Shown: positions 8,635-30,463 of the stretch, one piece after another
Numbering within the stretch: the first letter of the stretch is position 1
Layout: each line of letters opens with the position of its first letter
NCBI GenBank assembly: GCA_000063505.1
Contig: CT971583.1
Coordinates: forward strand, 1,953,918-2,017,917
DNA from: Synechococcus sp. WH 7803
GTDB lineage: Bacteria > Cyanobacteriota > Cyanobacteriia > PCC-6307 > Cyanobiaceae
Direction of reading: 5' to 3'
Length of the DNA: 64,000 nucleotides
Position numbers and translations under genes: made by a program
Notes under the pieces: generated by a model
Databases searched by the model: none
What the model saw: only the letters and a program-made list of their open reading frames with translations
Told to the model about the DNA's origin: nothing

Positions 8635-10563
8635 ATGGCCACCCGCCAGCCCCTCTCCGCCCGTCAAGCCCTCGGAAAGCAACCCTCCCTCAAAGCACCC
8701 AGGGTTCTTGGCGACTGGCTGCTGTGGCTCGAACAGCGCCCCCAGGACAAGGGCCGCACCACTGCGCTGTTGCGGCCTTGGGGACGCCCTGAGCAAACGC
8801 CCAAGGAACTCACCCCAGCCCCCTGCAACCTGCGTTGCCGGGTCCACGAATACGGCGGTGGCGCCAGCGCGGCAGCCCTGGATGACCATGGCCTCCTGCT
8901 GACCTGGATCGATGACAGCGATGGCTGTCTCTGGGCCCGGTCCTGGGGCGGACTGGCTGACGGAGACCCACAAACCGTGGTGGCGAACGGACCTGCCCGG
9001 CGTCTGACGGCCCCTGGCGAGGGTCTGCTGGGCGGTGGTGTGATCGATGCGAAGCGAAACCGCTGGATCGGCGTGATGGAGCACGCCGGGCGGGACGTCC
9101 TCGTGCAGGTGGCGATCGACCGCTTGGATCAGACGCCGGTTGTGCTGCACACAGCGGCGGATTTCGCGGGATACCCCGCCATCAGCCCTGATGGCGACCA
9201 GCTGGCTTGGGTGGAGTGGCAACAACCCGCCATGCCCTGGGAAGCCGCCGCACTGCACTGGGCTCCCATCAACGCCCATGGTGATCTCGGCAGCGTTGGC
9301 ACGCTGGCAGGCAGCACACCCGACGCTGAGCGTCCAACATCCATCTTCCAGCCGCTTTGGCTTCCTGACGGCCAGCTGATCGTTGCGGAGGACGCTGGTG
9401 GCTGGTGGAATCTGATGCAACACCAGGATCCCGGAGACCCGTCCCAGCGATGGGAACGGCTCTGGCCCATGCAGGCCGAGACGGCCATGCCGCAATGGGT
9501 GTTCGGCATGAGCACCACAGCCTGGGATGGGGAACAGCTGATTGCCGCTGTGTGCGCTGAAGGCCGTTGGCAATTGAAGCGGCTCAGCGCCGATGGCTCG
9601 ATCCGCATGGTGGACCAACCCTTCGACGACCTTGCGGAGCTGCATGCCGACGCAGGCCGTGCTGTAGCGATCGCCAGCAACAGCACAACCGGGCAGGGGC
9701 TGCTGGAACTGCACATCGCCAGTGGACGCTGGAGCCATACGCCGGCTTCAGCCCCGGTGTTGGAGCCGGAGAGCATCAGCATCGCCGAACCCCTCTGGTT
9801 CGCGGGAGCAGCCGGTCGGCGCACCCACGCCTGGTACTACCCACCCCGCGGCGGCGCCTCACCGAACACGCCCCTGCTGGTGAAAAGCCACAGCGGTCCC
9901 ACCGCGATGGCCCGCCGCGGCCTCAGCCTCGGCATTCAGTTCTGGACCAGCCGAGGCTGGGGCGTGGTGGATGTGAATTACGGGGGCTCTACTGGCTTTG
10001 GGCGGGCTTACCGCGAGCGGCTGAACGGTGAATGGGGCGTCGTGGATGTGCAGGACTGCGCCGCAGCAGCGAAGGCTGTGATCGCGAACGGAGATGCGCA
10101 CCCGCAGCGGATCGCCATCGAAGGGGGAAGTGCCGGCGGCTTCACCACCCTGGCCTGCCTCTGCTTCACCGATGTGTTCCAGGTGGGAGCCTGCCGTTAC
10201 GCGGTCAGCGACCTCTTGGCGCTGGCCTCCGAGACCCACCGCTTCGAAGCCCGCTATCTCGATGCTCTGGTGGGTGCATGGCCGCAGGACCGCCAGCGCT
10301 ATGAGGAGCGTTCACCCCTGCACCACGCCGATCGCATCCGTTGCCCGGTGATCTTCTTTCAGGGTCTGCAGGACAAGGTGGTGGTGCCGGAGCAAACGGA
10401 ACGGATGGCTGAGGCCCTGCGCCGCAACGGCATCCCTGTGGAGGTGCGCACCTACGCCGAGGAAGGGCATGGCTTCCGCGACAGTGCCGTGCAGGTGGAT
10501 GTGCTCGAAGCAACGGAAGCCTTCTTCCGCCAACACCTCGGACTCGAGCCCCACCCTCACTGA
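8635..10563 (+). CDS. S9-family prolyl-oligopeptidase-like serine peptidase
   Basis: 642 residues. An N-terminal beta-propeller (about 1-380; WIDDSDGCLW, ISPDGDQLAWVEW) precedes a C-terminal alpha/beta hydrolase domain. Catalytic residues appear as Ser in GGSAGG (about 499), Asp in QGLQDKVV (about 579) and His in EEGHGF (about 611). There is no signal peptide, so it is probably cytosolic and trims peptides or acyl-peptides. It is convergent with the aldolase gene, overlapping by 7 bp. Confidence 0.88.
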   Translation: MATRQPLSARQALGKQPSLKAPRVLGDWLLWLEQRPQDKGRTTALLRPWGRPEQTPKELTPAPCNLRCRVHEYGGGASAAALDDHGLLLTWIDDSDGCLWARSWGGLADGDPQTVVANGPARRLTAPGEGLLGGGVIDAKRNRWIGVMEHAGRDVLVQVAIDRLDQTPVVLHTAADFAGYPAISPDGDQLAWVEWQQPAMPWEAAALHWAPINAHGDLGSVGTLAGSTPDAERPTSIFQPLWLPDGQLIVAEDAGGWWNLMQHQDPGDPSQRWERLWPMQAETAMPQWVFGMSTTAWDGEQLIAAVCAEGRWQLKRLSADGSIRMVDQPFDDLAELHADAGRAVAIASNSTTGQGLLELHIASGRWSHTPASAPVLEPESISIAEPLWFAGAAGRRTHAWYYPPRGGASPNTPLLVKSHSGPTAMARRGLSLGIQFWTSRGWGVVDVNYGGSTGFGRAYRERLNGEWGVVDVQDCAAAAKAVIANGDAHPQRIAIEGGSAGGFTTLACLCFTDVFQVGACRYAVSDLLALASETHRFEARYLDALVGAWPQDRQRYEERSPLHHADRIRCPVIFFQGLQDKVVVPEQTERMAEALRRNGIPVEVRTYAEEGHGFRDSAVQVDVLEATEAFFRQHLGLEPHPH

Positions 10564-11231
10564 TCCTGCTGGCCGTAATGCAGACCTTTGAACTGGGCAT
10601 GCACAGCCTCCATCTGCTCTGCATCGAGCAGGGGAGGCTCCCCCAATTGCAGGGCCTGCAGGTACATCTTCGCCAGGGTTTCCACCTCCACGGCAATGCG
10701 CAGGGCAGCCTCAAGATCCGAGCCCAGCGTGACCAGCCCGTGCCTGGCCATCAAACAGGCCTGCCGCTCGACAAGCGCTCTCACCACATGTGCCGACAAG
10801 GCTGCGGTGCCAAACGTGGCGTAGGGAGCGCAGCGGATGTCATCCCCACCGGCCACCGCCACCATGTAGTGAAACGCGGGAATCGGCCGGTCATGGCAAG
10901 CCAGGGCAGTGGCATGCACCGGATGGCAGTGGAGCACGGCTTGCGCCTCAGGACGGGAGGCGAGCACATCCGCATGCAACCGCCACTCGGAGGATGGACG
11001 GCGCTGCCCCGACTGCAGCGGCTGGCCGCTCAGATCCAGTGCCACCAGATCCCCGGTTGTCATCTGCTCGTAGGGCAATGAGCTGGGAGTCACCAGCAGT
11101 CCGCCGTCGATGCGGACAGACAGGTTTCCCGATGTGCCTTGGTTGAGACCAGAGCCATTCAGGCGACGCGCCACCGCAACGAGTTGCTGCCGCAGAACGT
11201 CATCGTTGCCGAGACACTCAGCTCGGGCCAT
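10557..11231 (-). CDS. Class II aldolase/adducin-family protein next to mtnA
   Basis: 224 residues from MARAECLGNDD. Family motifs are GTSGNLSVR near 33, a Glu in SSEWRLH, the metal-binding pair in HCHPVH, and a third His in ARHGLV. The family includes L-fuculose-phosphate aldolase, MtnB dehydratase and 5-deoxyribulose-1-phosphate aldolase. Its start lies inside the 3' end of mtnA (14-bp overlap), so it is translated with mtnA. That favours acting on the MtnA product: either MtnB-like dehydration of methylthioribulose-1-phosphate, or cleavage of (deoxy)ribulose-1-phosphates to DHAP and an aldehyde. Sequence alone does not decide. Confidence 0.82.
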   Translation of the reverse strand: MARAECLGNDDVLRQQLVAVARRLNGSGLNQGTSGNLSVRIDGGLLVTPSSLPYEQMTTGDLVALDLSGQPLQSGQRRPSSEWRLHADVLASRPEAQAVLHCHPVHATALACHDRPIPAFHYMVAVAGGDDIRCAPYATFGTAALSAHVVRALVERQACLMARHGLVTLGSDLEAALRIAVEVETLAKMYLQALQLGEPPLLDAEQMEAVHAQFKGLHYGQQDQ

Positions 11232-23767: not shown

Positions 23768-24838
23768 GTGACGCAGGCCATCACAAATCTTGCCCGACTG
23801 ACTCTTCGTCAGCTGCGTCAGATGGCGAGTGACCTGGGCGTGACTCTCTATAGCCGCAAGAGCAAGCAAGACCTCGTTTCAGCCATTGCCGAACGACAGG
23901 AACGTCGTGGTGGCGATCTCAAGGCGATTGAAGCTGAACTCAACCCCCCAGCTCGGCCTCAGGCCAACACCAGGGTGGTTTTCCTCCCCCGCGACCCCCA
24001 GTGGGCTTACGTGTTCTGGGAACTCTCGGATGACGACCGCCGGCGCGCCCAAAGTGAGGGAGCCTCTCACCTCAGCCTGCGCCTGGCAGATGTTACCGGC
24101 CTGCAAGATGGCTCCTCCCATCCCCACACCCTTCAGGAAGTTCCTGTCGATAGCCACAGCACCGAGTGGTATCTGCCAGTGCCGCTGTGCGATCGCGACT
24201 ACCGAGTTGAGCTCGGATTCCGTGCCGGCAGTCAGTGGATGTCCCTAGCCTTCTCATCGGTTGCTCGGGTGCCTGCTCTCCATCCAAGCGATCAGATTCT
24301 TGATCAGTTTGTTCCCTTCAGCCTCGATGCCAGTGCGCCGGCTCCCCAGCCGGTCACCACTCCGATCGAACCCAGTGACAGTGGCCTGCACGAGCGTCTC
24401 TATCAAAGCGCCACCACCCACTTCCGCAGCCGCCGAGTGGGTTCTGAGGTTCTGCATGAGCTGGACTCACAATCCGGCGATCAGCGGGGGCTGAGCGATT
24501 CCGGCGCAGGACTTTGGGCCAGTGGACGCAACGAATCAGGTCTCGGCGGTGTGGCGCCGCGCCAGCGCAGTTTCTGGCTGGTTGCTGATGCTGAGCTGAT
24601 TGTTTACGGAGCCACTGATCCCTCGGCGCGTCTCACCATCGGCGGCGAAGAGGTTCCCCTCTCCAGCGACGGCACCTTCCGCATCCAGGTCCCATTCCGC
24701 GACGGCGAGCAGGCCTACCCCATCGAAGCAACCGCCGCCGATGGAGAGCAGAAGCGCAACATCACGCTGAACTTCGAGCGTGTGACCCCTGAAGACAACA
24801 GCAACCCCGCCAGCGAAGCCAAAGCTGAGTGGTTCTGA
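23768..24838 (+). CDS. DUF4912 protein with SAP/Rho-N-like N-terminus
   Basis: 356 residues from a GTG. Residues ~8-45 (LARLTLRQLRQMASDLGVTL ... KQDLVSAIAE) resemble a Rho N-terminal/SAP helix-extended-loop nucleic-acid-binding unit. Residues ~70-160 match DUF4912 (RVVFLPRDPQWAYVFWELSD). The C-terminal ~80 residues form a beta-rich segment (ELIVYGATDPSARLTIGGEE) also seen in cyanobacterial DUF4912 proteins. Function unknown; possibly nucleic-acid or envelope associated. Confidence 0.82.
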   Translation: MTQAITNLARLTLRQLRQMASDLGVTLYSRKSKQDLVSAIAERQERRGGDLKAIEAELNPPARPQANTRVVFLPRDPQWAYVFWELSDDDRRRAQSEGASHLSLRLADVTGLQDGSSHPHTLQEVPVDSHSTEWYLPVPLCDRDYRVELGFRAGSQWMSLAFSSVARVPALHPSDQILDQFVPFSLDASAPAPQPVTTPIEPSDSGLHERLYQSATTHFRSRRVGSEVLHELDSQSGDQRGLSDSGAGLWASGRNESGLGGVAPRQRSFWLVADAELIVYGATDPSARLTIGGEEVPLSSDGTFRIQVPFRDGEQAYPIEATAADGEQKRNITLNFERVTPEDNSNPASEAKAEWF

Positions 24839-25070: not shown

Positions 25071-26477
25071 GTGATGAACTACGGCCCGATCGCCTTACTG
25101 GCCTTCACGCTGCTGGGCTGCAGCCAGCCCGGCATGGTGATCGGCCGCTCGCCCAGCGAACTCCCATTGCCAACGGCGATTGAGGTTCGCTTCAACCATC
25201 GCGACAACAGTCGCTACCGCTCTCCACTCGGTGGCCAGTGGCGCAACGGCGACGATTTTGAAGGACACCTGATCGAGCAAATCGATGCTGCCAGGACGGA
25301 ACTGCTGGTTGCTGTTCAGGAGCTCACGCTTGCGCAGGTCGCCGCCGCACTGGTGAGAGCCCACCAGCGCGGCGTGATCGTGCAAGTGGTGCTTGAAAAC
25401 AGCTACAGCGCACCCTGGGCCGATCTGCATGAATCGGATCTGCCGCCCCACGCTCGTCAGAGACTGCGACGCTTGGAGGCCCTTGCCGACGTTGACAGCG
25501 ATGGCGTGGTGACAGCAAGGGAGCGCCGTGCAGGCGATGCCGTGGGGTTGCTGCATGAGGGCGGCGTGCCTGTCATCGACGACACCGAGGACGGCAGCCG
25601 CGGCAGTGGACTGATGCACCACAAATTCATGGTGATCGACAAGCGCCAGGTGATCACCGGGAGTGCCAACTTCACAAGCTCTGGCGTCCACGGCGACGGT
25701 GGAGCACCACGGACCCGCGGGAATGTGAATCATCTGCTCAGCATCCAAAGCACCGAACTGGCTGCTGTGTTCCAAGAAGAATTTCAGATCCTGTGGGGGG
25801 ATGGTCCGGGAGGCCTCCAGAACAGTCGCTTTGGCAGAGGAAAGCCAAGCCGGCCTGTCCAAAGCGTGACGGTGGAGGGAACACGGATGGATGTGCTGTT
25901 CGCTCCTCACAGCAAGCGGTCCAAAGGCCATGGCCTCCAACTCATTGCACAACACCTGAGCACGGCAGAGCGCAGCATTGATCTGGCCCTGTTCGTGTTC
26001 TCGGCCCAGTCGCTGACGGATGTGTTGGCCCAACGTGTTCAATCCGGAGTAGCGATCCGGCTGCTGGCGGACCCGGGCTTCGCCAGTCGATCTTTTTCAG
26101 AGGTGCTCGATTTACTCGGGGTGGCACTGCCCGACCGTTTCTGCAAGCTGGAACAGGGCAACCGCCCCTTGGCCAAGGCCCTGAAGGGCGTCGGCACCCC
26201 CCGCCTCGCCCGCGGCGACAAGTTGCACCATAAGTTCGCCGTGATCGACAACCGCAAAGTAATCACGGGATCCTTCAATTGGTCACCGTCGGCTGCTCAT
26301 CAGAACGACGAAACCCTGCTGGTGATTCACTCACCCACACTGGCAGCGCACTTCACCCGTGAGATCGATCGCATGTGGCGCGGCGCTGAACTGGGCATCA
26401 CAAAGCGCATGCGCCGCAAACTGGAACGGCAGCGTGCCAAGTGCGGCAGTGGTGAAGAAAGAAGCTCAAACAGCTGA
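25071..26477 (+). CDS. Phospholipase D-superfamily lipoprotein with EF-hand insertion
   Basis: 468 residues from GTG 25071 (or ATG 25074). The N-terminus ends in a lipobox (LLGC), so it is a lipid-anchored exported protein. Two HKD catalytic motifs are present: HHKFMVIDKRQVITGSANF (about 183) and HHKFAVIDNRKVITGSFNW (about 385). Between the N-terminal fold and HKD1 is a canonical EF-hand loop, DVDSDGVVTARE (residues 140-151), with Asp at 1, 3 and 5, Gly at 6 and Glu at 12. It may act as a phospholipase, cardiolipin-synthase-like enzyme or nuclease, perhaps Ca2+-dependent. A decayed copy of its tail lies at 27221. Confidence 0.88.
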   Translation: MMNYGPIALLAFTLLGCSQPGMVIGRSPSELPLPTAIEVRFNHRDNSRYRSPLGGQWRNGDDFEGHLIEQIDAARTELLVAVQELTLAQVAAALVRAHQRGVIVQVVLENSYSAPWADLHESDLPPHARQRLRRLEALADVDSDGVVTARERRAGDAVGLLHEGGVPVIDDTEDGSRGSGLMHHKFMVIDKRQVITGSANFTSSGVHGDGGAPRTRGNVNHLLSIQSTELAAVFQEEFQILWGDGPGGLQNSRFGRGKPSRPVQSVTVEGTRMDVLFAPHSKRSKGHGLQLIAQHLSTAERSIDLALFVFSAQSLTDVLAQRVQSGVAIRLLADPGFASRSFSEVLDLLGVALPDRFCKLEQGNRPLAKALKGVGTPRLARGDKLHHKFAVIDNRKVITGSFNWSPSAAHQNDETLLVIHSPTLAAHFTREIDRMWRGAELGITKRMRRKLERQRAKCGSGEERSSNS

Positions 26478-26605
26478 AGAGATAGCAGCCAACAACAACG
26501 TGTTTCGGGCCAAGCTGCCATCACACGCAAAATTGAATTTTTAGTTGACTACACGTGTGTTGCCGAGGAGCCTAAGCAGACTAAAGGCCTTCCCCAAGCC
26601 TGACG

Positions 26606-27085
26606 ATGACCTCATTCACCCATGGGACCATCAGCAAAAGATCATTATTTGCCCTACTCGGTGTCCTGAGGTTGTTCTTAGCCGTGGCAGCCATCACGGT
26701 CATCACCGTCGAAATCATTGAGGTCTACATGCAAAAAGAGGTCATGCACCTCGCCCTATTTGCGATGTTTTTCCTGATCTGCAATTTTCAGATCAACCTC
26801 AGCAGACACACATCTGTCTTTAAGAAAGAAGAGCGAATCAGTCGATTATTCATCCTGGCTCTCTTCAGTCTTGCCGCTGCCTTCTTTGAACTTGTCGACC
26901 TTGGCTTTGACCAGCTCACCAAAAACCTCAAAAGCAATCCCCTACTCACAACTGGCTACCAAAGCATCTGCGTCCTAGAGACTGCGGTTGCGATTTTAGC
27001 CATTCTCTTAATCACCTATTCCATTGATCGAATGCTGGTCACCCTGCGCTCAACGGCACATGACCACAGAACAGTCAATCTATGA
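26606..27085 (+). CDS. Four-helix membrane protein of unknown function, AT-richer than neighbours
   Basis: 159 residues. Four hydrophobic segments (about 17-38, 46-64, 83-105 and 125-150) with basic loops (RHTSVFKKEERISR). The pattern resembles small YqhA-like/UPF0114 four-helix proteins, but I cannot assign it with confidence. Base composition and codon use are noticeably AT-richer than the flanks. It lies between the phospholipase gene and a remnant of that gene's 3' end. It may have been acquired or brought in with the duplication. Confidence 0.72.
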   Translation: MTSFTHGTISKRSLFALLGVLRLFLAVAAITVITVEIIEVYMQKEVMHLALFAMFFLICNFQINLSRHTSVFKKEERISRLFILALFSLAAAFFELVDLGFDQLTKNLKSNPLLTTGYQSICVLETAVAILAILLITYSIDRMLVTLRSTAHDHRTVNL

Positions 27086-27145
27086 TTAACAAATAAATGA
27101 GCCACTAACCGAAGACCAAGAAAGCGCTTTGGAGCAACCCAAAGA

Positions 27146-27172
27146 AATCAACACCGATCATTGTTGATTTTA
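27146..27172 (+). terminator. Weak hairpin terminator downstream of the four-helix gene
   Basis: An AATCAACA / TGTTGATT 8-bp AT-rich stem with an 8-base loop is followed by a short T stretch (TTTTAT), 60 bp after the membrane protein stop. Weak but well placed. Confidence 0.4.
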
Positions 27173-27220
27173 TTGCGACCCTCTCAAGGAAGGAACCTAA
27201 AGAGCAGCACAATTCAGCGA

Positions 27221-27312
27221 AGTGATCGATCGGATAGAGCCCGGACCAGAACTGACCATCAACGAGCGCATAGGCCGCAGAATGGATCGACAGCGTGCCG
27301 AGTGCGGCAGTG
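27221..27312 (+). pseudogene. Remnant of the 3' end of a second phospholipase D gene
   Basis: Codons here read (VIDRIEPGPELTINERIG then RRMDRQRAECGSG). They align without gaps to the tail of the phospholipase at 26363-26454 (EIDRMWRGAELGITKRM then RRKLERQRAKCGSG). Nucleotide identity is high in the last 30 bases (CAGCGTGCC.AGTGCGGCAGTGG). No HKD motif is present, so only the extreme C-terminus survives. It implies duplication and decay, or recombination, around the intervening gene. Confidence 0.65.
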
Positions 27313-27351
27313 GCAAACAATGCAGAGGATCAAACGTTCGCCGGCAAGGTC

Positions 27352-28047
27352 ATGCGGGCCCTGCGCCTTTTGATTCGGCGCAACTTCAGCGCCCGCGGCC
27401 TTTATCTGCGCTTTCTGGCAGGACGGATCACCTTTGTTGATGGCAGAGAGAACAACGCAAGAGCGATCGTCCTGCAGATTCCAGGTCAGACCGACCCCTG
27501 TTACAGCCCGTTCAACACAGGAATCGCCCGCAAGCTGTGCGCTGAGGGTTACACAGTGGTTCGCTGCGATTTCAGCGGTCAAAAGCTCAACCAAATGAAA
27601 CGCGAACTCACAGATCACCAGGTGGATGCTTTCTGCGAACAGCTCATTCAGCGCTGTCAGCGCTTGCGGCGGCGTCATCACCAACCACTGATCCTTGTCG
27701 GCAAATCACTGGGAGGAGCCATCGTGACCAAAGCGCTCGACAGAACAGGCGCAGCTGGCTGTGTGGTGCTCGGCTACCCATTCCACAAAGAGGGAAGCCA
27801 CTGGGACCGGCTTCGCCACCTCCAACACATCCGCAAGCCCGTGTTCATCATTCAGGGTGAGGACGACCGCTACGGCGGCAAGAACCTGGTCGCAGGACTG
27901 ACACTGTCCGATTCAATCGACATGGTGTGGATCGCTCAAGCCGAGCATGGCTTCAAACACCACATACCGGCTCTCAAAGACGAATTGGCAGGCGCTTGTC
28001 AGACGATCCTCAACGGATCCAATGGTCTGGAATCAGAGGCAGAATGA
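27352..28047 (+). CDS. Alpha/beta-hydrolase (KANL3/Tex30-like)
   Basis: 231 residues from the ATG at 27352; a GTG at 27295 would add residues that overlap the phospholipase remnant. The nucleophile elbow is VGKSLGGAI (GxSxG), the acid is likely in QGEDDRYGG, and the His in AEHGFKHH. This small hydrolase family is common in bacteria; the substrate is unknown. It is immediately followed by an overlapping small exported protein gene. Confidence 0.8.
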   Translation: MRALRLLIRRNFSARGLYLRFLAGRITFVDGRENNARAIVLQIPGQTDPCYSPFNTGIARKLCAEGYTVVRCDFSGQKLNQMKRELTDHQVDAFCEQLIQRCQRLRRRHHQPLILVGKSLGGAIVTKALDRTGAAGCVVLGYPFHKEGSHWDRLRHLQHIRKPVFIIQGEDDRYGGKNLVAGLTLSDSIDMVWIAQAEHGFKHHIPALKDELAGACQTILNGSNGLESEAE

Positions 28048-28447
28048 CGACCTCTTCCCTCACCTCGCCTTGCGCTTCCTGACTCTTCTGCTCAGCCTCG
28101 CGGTGTTGAGGGTGCCTGCCGCCCAAGCGAAGGTTGAGTATGTACCTCTGCCCACCAAAGACGAGCTGCGCTCGCTTCAACTGCAGGCCTACGCCTGCTC
28201 CAGGGAGAACGATGCGGATCTCTGCGAAGCAACCCGGAAGACAGCAGACCCCTTGATGGACCACCCCCGACTCCCCGCGGCCTGCAAAGACGCCGTGTGG
28301 GAGCTCATTCAGGCCTCCACCCCCGCCACACCGAACACCTTCCAGCGGCGCGACAGCATCGACAGGCCAGCACGTCGGCTCACGGTGGTCTGCGCCAAAC
28401 CGGTCAAACCCAAAAAGCAAGCCACCCCGGCTCCAGGCAAGGCCTGA
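28022..28447 (+). CDS. Small exported Cys-containing protein
   Basis: Up to 141 residues. A hydrophobic signal (LRFLTLLLSLAVLRVPAAQA) precedes a short soluble domain with four Cys (YACSRENDADLCEATRKTAD, LPAACKD, VVCAK) and a basic Lys/Pro tail. The start is uncertain: ATG 28022 overlaps the hydrolase 3' end, while TTG 28070 would give a compact signal peptide. No domain recognised. Confidence 0.55.
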   Translation: MVWNQRQNDDLFPHLALRFLTLLLSLAVLRVPAAQAKVEYVPLPTKDELRSLQLQAYACSRENDADLCEATRKTADPLMDHPRLPAACKDAVWELIQASTPATPNTFQRRDSIDRPARRLTVVCAKPVKPKKQATPAPGKA

Positions 28448-28693: not shown

Positions 28694-28804
28694 ACAACGC
28701 AACGTTCTCCCTTCCTTCAAAGGTAGCTGCAACAACTGGTTGTGCCGAACACCCCTAACGGCTTCAGACGTGTTTAGGTTCCCGTTGAATTGCTGTCTGA
28801 TGGG

Positions 28805-30463
28805 ATGACCGCATCCGCCTCGGCCGAACCGACGCACACCCTTGTGCGTCTGGACGCTCCCTTCACTGACCAGAAACCCGGCACGTCCGGACTGCGTAAG
28901 AGCAGCCGCCAGTTCGAACAGCCGCACTATCTGGAAAGCTTTGTTGAGGCAGTGTTCCGCACACTCCCTGGGGTTCAAGGCGGCACCCTGGTCCTGGGGG
29001 GCGACGGTCGCTACGGCAATGCCCGGGCCATCGACATCATTCTGCGCATGGGCGCAGCGCACGGTCTCAGCAAGGTGATTGTCACCACGGCTGGCATCCT
29101 CTCCACACCAGCAGCATCCAATCTGATCCGCAAGCGTCAGGCGATCGGTGGAATCATCCTCTCGGCCAGTCACAACCCAGGGGGAGCCGAAGGGGATTTC
29201 GGCGTGAAGGTGAACGGTGCCAACGGGGGGCCTACGCCTGCCTCTTTCACGGACGCCGTCTTCGAATGCACCAAGACACTCGAGCAGTACGCCATCGTCG
29301 AGGCGCGAACCCCCAGCCTCGATGCCCCTGGCAAGCATTCCATTGGCGCCATGGACGTGGAGGTCATCGATGGCGTGGATGATTTCGTGGAGTTGATGCA
29401 GGAGCTGTTCGATTTCGATCGGATCCGCGATCTGATCCGCAGTGACTTCCCCCTGGCCTTCGACGCCATGCATGCCGTGACCGGCCCCTATGCGCGACGT
29501 TTGCTGGAAGGTTTGCTCGGAGCACCAGCTGGAAGCGTGCGCCATGGCACGCCCCTCGAAAACTTTGGTGGTGGACACCCCGATCCCAACCTCACCTATG
29601 CCCACGAACTGGCTGAACTGCTCCTCGATGGGGACGAGTACCGCTTCGGCGCTGCTTGCGACGGTGATGGCGATCGCAACATGATCCTGGGCCAGCGCTG
29701 CTTTGTGAATCCAAGCGACAGCCTTGCGGTGCTCACCGCCAACGCCACGGTGGCTCCGGCCTATGCCAATGGCCTGGCCGGGGTGGCCCGTTCGATGCCC
29801 ACCAGCGCTGCGGTGGATGTGGTGGCCAAAGAGCTGGGGATTGACTGCTTCGAAACCCCAACTGGCTGGAAATTCTTTGGCAACCTGCTGGATGCCGGCA
29901 AAATCACACTGTGCGGTGAAGAGAGCTTCGGCACCGGCAGCAACCATGTGCGCGAAAAGGACGGCCTCTGGGCCGTGCTGTTCTGGCTGCAGATCTTGGC
30001 CGAGCGCCGCTGCAGCGTCGCTGACATCATGACCGAGCACTGGAAGCGCTTCGGACGCCACTACTACTCGCGTCACGACTATGAGGCTGTTGCCAGCGAA
30101 GCCGCCCACGGGCTTTACGACCGTCTCGAGAGCATGCTTCCAGACCTTGTTGGGCAAGCGTTTGCCGGGCGCACCATCAGCGCGGCCGACAACTTCAGCT
30201 ACACCGACCCCGTGGACGGGTCCGTGACCACGGGGCAGGGCCTGCGCATCCTGTTGGATGACGGCAGCCGAGTGGTGCTGCGTCTCTCGGGCACCGGCAC
30301 CAAAGGCGCCACGATCCGGATCTATCTCGAGAGCTACGTCCCCAGCAGCGGCGATCTCAACCAGGATCCCCAAACTGCCTTGGCAGGCATGATCACGGCC
30401 ATCAATGACCTCGCTGAACTAGAGCAGCGCACGGGCATGGACAAGCCCACGGTGATCACGTGA
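28805..30463 (+). CDS. pgm: Phosphoglucomutase (alpha-D-glucose phosphate-specific)
   Basis: 552 residues from the ATG at 28805. The active-site phosphoserine loop is ILSASHNPGG, the metal loop DGDGDRNMI, the sugar-binding loop GEESFGTGSNH, and the C-terminal phosphate-binding region RLSGTGTKGAT. It interconverts glucose-1-phosphate and glucose-6-phosphate for glycogen, sucrose and cell-wall synthesis. A strong terminator follows. Confidence 0.95.
   Translation: MTASASAEPTHTLVRLDAPFTDQKPGTSGLRKSSRQFEQPHYLESFVEAVFRTLPGVQGGTLVLGGDGRYGNARAIDIILRMGAAHGLSKVIVTTAGILSTPAASNLIRKRQAIGGIILSASHNPGGAEGDFGVKVNGANGGPTPASFTDAVFECTKTLEQYAIVEARTPSLDAPGKHSIGAMDVEVIDGVDDFVELMQELFDFDRIRDLIRSDFPLAFDAMHAVTGPYARRLLEGLLGAPAGSVRHGTPLENFGGGHPDPNLTYAHELAELLLDGDEYRFGAACDGDGDRNMILGQRCFVNPSDSLAVLTANATVAPAYANGLAGVARSMPTSAAVDVVAKELGIDCFETPTGWKFFGNLLDAGKITLCGEESFGTGSNHVREKDGLWAVLFWLQILAERRCSVADIMTEHWKRFGRHYYSRHDYEAVASEAAHGLYDRLESMLPDLVGQAFAGRTISAADNFSYTDPVDGSVTTGQGLRILLDDGSRVVLRLSGTGTKGATIRIYLESYVPSSGDLNQDPQTALAGMITAINDLAELEQRTGMDKPTVIT

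Follow-up and report, generated by a model that had tools for sequence, protein, structure and literature searches.

The window analyzed here, a stretch of 64,000 nucleotides from Synechococcus sp. WH 7803 (genome in a single contig of 2,366,980 bases), contains a phospholipase D (PLD)-like gene followed by a small AT-rich insert, an alpha/beta hydrolase gene, a small gene, and a phosphoglucomutase gene (Table 1). The last two are conserved downstream of PLD in relatives; the small gene, probed with the stretch listed, gave no Pfam match. The GC fraction of the insert was 0.466, versus 0.613 for PLD and 0.601 for the window. Upstream of PLD, positions 23768 to 24838 encode a DUF4912 protein with an N-terminal Rho_N domain.

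Table 1. Features of the PLD locus, in window coordinates
Feature	Position	Strand	Evidence and remarks
PLD-like target gene, two PLD domains	25071..26477	+	PLDc_2 1.4e-44; full-length, orthologous position in 29/31 genus genomes
Second HKD motif codons (HHKFAVID)	26226..26249	+	Class B displaced ends of relatives start there, residues 383-388
Repeated part of intact PLD 3' end (copy 1)	26343..26459	+	87/117 identical to 27204-27320
Insert between PLD stop codon and displaced end	26478..27203	.	GC 0.466; no integrase, no arm-like motif
Membrane-protein gene (cargo), 159 aa, four predicted helices	26606..27085	+	Behind PLD also in G025, G018
Displaced, most likely original PLD 3' end (copy 2), last ~40 codons, decaying, runs into downstream flank	27204..27335	+	Repeat; counterpart in G025
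Alpha/beta hydrolase gene, start uncertain	27295..28047	+	Abhydrolase_11 3.4e-31; directly after PLD in G029, pieces in G006, G009
Probe stretch for conserved small downstream gene, hotspot right border	28046..28447	+	ORF in frame 27947-28447, start uncertain
Phosphoglucomutase gene, conserved right flank	28790..30463	+	PGM domains; synteny

Part of the PLD 3' end occurs a second time behind the insert. A first-pass annotation of this DNA had reported such a repeat, free of gaps, at 26363 to 26454 and 27221 to 27312, and the repeat is real. Copies 1 and 2 align without gaps and in the PLD reading frame over the 117 bases given in Table 1, and a gapped extension takes the match of copy 2 to 27335. 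The local score was 60, whereas 2,000 dinucleotide shuffles, the random-sequence control that the annotation had named, gave a mean of 10.8 and a maximum of 20. The intervals it gave were out of register by 3 bases (20 of 92 bases identical as written, 70 of 92 with copy 2 moved by +3), and the match begins about 20 bases earlier than claimed. Its statement that copy 2 has no HKD motif was borne out; the copy covers only the gene end, 3' of the second HKD motif, and extends over a GTG codon at 27295 that may be the start of the hydrolase gene. The 30 differences between the copies fell on codon positions 1, 2, and 3 in the numbers 10, 8, and 12. Because the changes are spread evenly, copy 2 shows no sign of coding constraint and resembles sequence that is no longer translated; on this ground a separate conserved small gene at 27204 to 27335 was rejected.

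The low-GC gene for a four-helix membrane protein that the annotation had placed between the copies is likewise present, the helices being predicted with moderate confidence (mean pLDDT of 73). Its differences from the G025 gene were distributed 11/2/25 over codon positions 1/2/3, a pattern that makes it look like a working gene. Relatives of the protein are encoded directly behind PLD in G025 and G018, with weaker ones elsewhere, and matches at an E value of ≤0.001 were found in 38 of 400 family genomes, the window genome included. As to function, the protein gave no Pfam match near the cutoff and none in NCBIfam, PHROG, or PADLOC, and a Foldseek comparison of its model with the PDB gave no match with an E value of ≤0.001.

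PLD is present in 29 of 31 genomes of the genus; the two without it are 80% and 63% complete. In a close relative, G029, the hydrolase gene adjoins PLD directly, whereas in the window it lies beyond the insert, and G006 and G009 keep pieces of it after PLD. The sequence GAGCGAACGTCCGC after PLD in G006 corresponds to GAGCGAACGTTCGC after copy 2 in G025. Where close relatives lack the insert, their PLD end leads straight into the downstream gene; we therefore regard copy 2 as most likely the original PLD end and the end of the intact gene as most likely newer. We read the present 3' end of PLD in the window as the end that the insert brought. A visibly foreign end was sought in the window's own PLD and was not seen: identity to the G006 gene was 0.89 for the end, compared with 0.87 for the gene body.

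This comparison of synteny, which the first-pass annotation had proposed, was decisive for its suggestions. One of them, a plain tandem duplication of the phospholipase with decay of the second copy, draws on the repeat itself but is very improbable. The genus search gave a single full-length match to PLD at the site in each genome, extra matches there being 3' ends only, and no intact second PLD was found there; moreover, the ends start repeatedly at the same places, and integrases adjoin them (see below). What recurs at the site is the 3' end alone, and we rejected a decaying second PLD gene. The other suggestion, insertion by recombination between related sequences, comes close to the reading that we prefer, and the region was correctly described as an accessory island.

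Genome comparison shows that the stretch between PLD and the small gene is an insertion hotspot. Among the 24 fetched loci that have both genes (22 of the genus plus G034 and G035 of other genera), the interval varies between 29 bp (G027) or 96 bp (G023) at the short end and 10.8 kb (G012) or 16.3 kb (G010) at the long end. Cargo between PLD and the conserved genes includes tetratricopeptide repeat (TPR) proteins that also contain a methyltransferase or glycosyltransferase domain, an RND efflux pump together with its membrane-fusion protein, PUCC, SufBD, and LysR-like proteins, pieces with weak similarity to primases, and many unknowns. A search for defense genes among ten proteins (nine from PLD-site loci and one from contig L110, described below) gave only two weak matches, at 0.0039 and 0.0002. 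Part of this cargo is located beyond the last displaced end and may be older flank.

By tblastn and merging, with one end seen twice in overlapping loci dropped, we counted 25 displaced PLD 3' ends, which belong to 14 of the 29 genus genomes that have PLD; in G015 and for two of the G005 ends the link to PLD is presumed, because contig breaks lie in between. An intact target gene on one side and a displaced end on the other, as left by an element that regenerates its target, was found in these 14 genomes, the window genome among them. No displaced end occurs in any of the six loci with an interval of <0.8 kb. Of the 18 with an interval of >1.5 kb, a displaced end is present in 11 and absent from 7 (G007, G035, G018, G019, G011, G028, and G016), and displaced ends therefore explain the hotspot in large part but not fully.

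Directly upstream of many displaced ends, on the opposite strand, lies a gene for a tyrosine recombinase of about 353 residues. The protein matches PF00589 (1.6e-18) and phrog_1 (2.3e-38). In the alignment of these integrases R195, K236, R309, H332, and Y341, which we take to be the catalytic residues, are invariant, and the usual H-x-x-R reads Y-x-x-R (Y306); the family thus has both the Phage_integrase domain and the catalytic residues of a tyrosine recombinase. In the search for phage relatives, all 80 records had <60% identity, and the best with near-full coverage had 26%. An integrase, complete or as a remnant, adjoins 14 of the 25 displaced ends of the genus and is absent from the other 11, the window among them; these loci were chosen by the PLD end and not by the integrase. 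Loci of other genera were fetched because of their integrase, so that adjacency there is not independent evidence. Integrase remnants exist in every degree of decay; the window genome has no match to the family. None of the six PLD-like tails found elsewhere (two each in G016 and G009, one each in G024 and G034) has an integrase; the tail next to PLD in G034 has an integrase remnant. Two of these distant tails, in G016 (L064:5259-5534 and 10494-10769), are copies of one diverged PLD-like tail, identical to each other (score of 465 over 465 bases), far from PLD and without the PLD-site integrase; they enclose about 5 kb of DNA that contains a 1,166-codon ORF. G009 has a PLD 3' end (L065:8507-8725; 88% identity to the window protein) about 40 kb from PLD, also without an integrase.

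The displaced ends start at recurrent places. Class A ends start at residues 364 to 375 or thereabouts (about −272), and class B ends start at residues 383 to 388 (about −235), within the codons of the second HKD motif. A third, looser group, to which the window belongs, starts around residues 402 to 425. It includes five starts within 17 bp (−164, −162, −159, −154, and −147), and this closeness could mean that the ends starting near −160 (three copies in G001, those of G008 and G020, and perhaps that of the window) mark an additional element type, with a separate crossover point and a recombinase so far unseen. We consider such an element type doubtful. The G020 end abuts an integrase remnant (residues 150 to 199) of the known family, which points to deletion; satellites at tRNA genes are described as having deletions in their displaced target fragments (PMC10111431); and the ends in the window (−132) and G025 (−123) start later still, after those of classes A and B. 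The third group may reflect either a crossover point or a set of deletions.

Related integrases have sister targets. Some adjoin the 3' end of uvrA, as in L128, which has two displaced uvrA ends plus the intact gene, and others adjoin the 5' part of the methylpurine-DNA glycosylase (MPG) gene, with the intact gene at the other end in several loci; four integrases that include the N-terminus have no assigned site (L132, L135, L137, and L147). The uvrA elements are in L100, L102, L110, L128, L131, L133, and L134, where tandem displaced uvrA ends occur, and the MPG elements, some of them remnants, are in L092, L093, L095, L096, L098, L099, L101, L129, L140, and L149. In L125 (7654-9489) a PLD-type integrase and PLD end adjoin a piece of the glycosylase gene, as if two kinds of element had met. 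A tRNA attachment site, as in tycheposons, was also considered and was rejected: the integrases lie beside PLD, uvrA, or MPG fragments, and a scan of 12 integrase loci gave no tRNA gene.

In a tree of 26 integrases, four target labels required three changes, the minimum, which none of 200 shuffles reached. Support was 100/100 for PLD versus the rest (with one member without a known target inside), 100/99 for class A, 96/94 for uvrA, and 72/71 for MPG; class B, at 36/0, is not a supported group. Between the integrase start and the gene piece, the motifs AAGCCA, paired TAGC[CT], and TGGCTT occur at constant spacing relative to the integrase start, respectively in 27, 29, and 30 of the 34 loci with known targets, compared with at most 3 in 200 shuffles; in the four loci without a known target the numbers were 0, 0, and 2. 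These motifs are presumably arm-type integrase sites. The window insert has neither the paired TAGC[CT] motif nor AAGCCA or TGGCTT in the family arrangement.

Scans of viral contigs, which used short peptide patterns and can miss relatives, gave one contig by integrase, of the uvrA type, and 12 contigs at 35 to 48% identity by PLD end; no excised PLD-type element was found in these scans. The uvrA-type contig, L110 (IMG/VR; 3,506 bp), has an exact terminal repeat of 127 bp and contains one uvrA 3' end, a methyltransferase-like gene (PF05050, 1.3e-9), and an unknown. It probably represents an excised 3,379-bp circle, but a tandem array could give the same contig.

Loci in which the PLD end is continuous with the flank are empty sites: G007 relative to G012 and G030, and G029 and G006 relative to the window and G025. 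In G007, PLD runs into a gene of a PUCC-like cluster. In G012, after an insert of about 9 kb, the displaced end agrees with G007 at 226 of 228 positions and its flank at 159 of 160, versus 191 of 228 for the intact end; the G030 displaced end beside PUCC matches G007 at 192 of 231 positions and its flank at 151 of 161. The bodies of the G012 and G007 PLD genes are only 85% alike, although end and flank are 99% alike. Because the bodies differ by 15%, homologous recombination must have acted here recently as well; in this pair it is inseparable from integration.

We also compared pairwise identity in 120-bp windows with identity over the rest of PLD in 29 intact genes; the pairs are not independent, and the coefficients are given as descriptions, with no formal test. 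The correlation (r) was 0.82 to 0.94 up to −303 and 0.74 in the window across the border, and it fell to 0.53, 0.36, 0.45, and 0.38 in the last four windows. The region of the first HKD motif, which is equally conserved, kept an r of 0.86. As judged by sequence identity, the last ~270 bp of PLD is decoupled from the rest of the gene between lineages.

Our interpretation, which we hold to be probable, is that small integrative elements of marine picocyanobacteria use the PLD 3' end as their attachment site in the chromosome and that one of them left the window insert as a remnant. Each element would carry its own copy of the PLD 3' end, and its tyrosine integrase would recombine the element end with chromosomal PLD within or close to the stretch that encodes the second HKD motif, the candidate crossover region. 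The host PLD would gain the element's 3' end and stay intact, and the old end would come to lie beyond the element, next to the integrase gene. Successive insertions would accumulate cargo and displaced ends and would keep exchanging the last ~90 residues of the enzyme. The sequences themselves show the hotspot, the displaced ends, the integrases beside them, an empty site, gene ends with a history apart from that of the gene, and the sister targets; strand exchange by the PLD-site integrase, the exact core, present mobility, and the origin of the window insert as a deletion relic are the parts of this scheme that we infer. Several observations weigh against the scheme: 11 of the 25 displaced ends lack an adjacent integrase, 7 of the 18 long intervals have no displaced end, class B integrases are an unsupported group, homologous exchange acted at the G012/G007 site, and the scans gave no excised PLD-type element.

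In the window, one small insert would be left, with the membrane-protein gene and a decaying displaced end and without an integrase. The insert is most likely a deletion relic of an integrase element: we read it as an old, deleted element because it is small and AT-rich, lacks an integrase, is shared with G025, and has an end that leads into the flank found after PLD in G006. Two points speak against this reading: the intact PLD end of the window does not look foreign, and the start of its displaced end is later than in classes A and B. The main rival for the window insert is homologous recombination, by which a cassette free of integrase, with a PLD end, would have come from a relative, the integrase elements being separate users of the site. 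The insert has neither integrase nor arm-like motif, the distant G018 has the same membrane gene behind PLD without a displaced end, and the G012/G007 site has signs of homologous exchange. Such an import is nevertheless unlikely: on its own, it does not create displaced gene ends of one set orientation, and scars of the same type are tied to an integrase in 14 of 25 cases, with remnants in all stages of decay.

Applied to the sister targets, the attachment-site reading would extend to the whole integrase family. We give about even odds to the broader proposal that this family repeatedly took conserved protein-gene motifs as its address (the HKD motif of PLD, the C-terminal end of UvrA, and the YGIHHCVN region of MPG), with regeneration of the 3' end in two and of the 5' part in the third, and with exchange between lineages of the last ~90 residues of PLD, half of its active site. 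If this is true, the PLD site is an engine by which lineages keep trading half the active site of an enzyme encoded in the chromosome, and mobile elements remodel part of that enzyme at each arrival.

A PLD-gene site was not recognized in the open-access literature at the level of titles and the starts of abstracts, although the original tycheposon paper may mention one, and the word "phospholipase" had zero occurrences in the term-searched papers on marine picocyanobacterial genomes. The kind of event is already known from cryptic prophage e14 at icd and from the dusA islands. In Escherichia coli K-12, as described, e14 inserts into the coding frame of an enzyme gene close to its 3' end, the end supplied by e14 restores the gene, and a displaced gene end of 165 bp is left (PMC11148124). 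There the gene and the integrase are different, whereas the PLD site has serial insertions by many elements with short cargo; no prophage genes were recognized among the proteins scanned. The dusA islands are reported to have a tyrosine-integrase family of their own, tied to one conserved protein gene, and very different cargo (PMC4482086). They are in Proteobacteria and hit the 5' end of the gene, whereas the picocyanobacterial targets are the 3' ends of PLD and uvrA and the 5' part of the glycosylase gene; their excision was shown by PCR, whereas the PLD-type elements are known here from sequence alone.

Helper-embedded PICIs and fis/hpt PICIs are described as having an integrase clade with several protein-gene targets (PMC10111431). 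They resemble the PLD-site elements in having a precisely placed, conserved attP motif, occasional tandems, and damaged displaced fragments; they differ in that no helper phage or satellite gene set was identified for the PLD-site elements, in whose proteins primase-like matches were weak (phrog_47, 4.7e-6 and 2.5e-10). Tycheposons and the picocyanobacterial integrase of a protein-language-model study are described at tRNA genes (PMC10872708 and PMC10187409). They share with the PLD-site elements the marine picocyanobacterial hosts, a tyrosine recombinase, and cargo islands, but their sites are at tRNA genes, in contrast to the 12 loci scanned here; in addition, the integrase of that study was reported as missed by PHROG profiles, whereas the PLD-site integrase was matched by phrog_1. 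To the picocyanobacterial elements so described, the PLD site would add a protein-gene address with its own integrase family, recognizable scars, and small cargo, so that the gain of cargo and its order could be read strain by strain.
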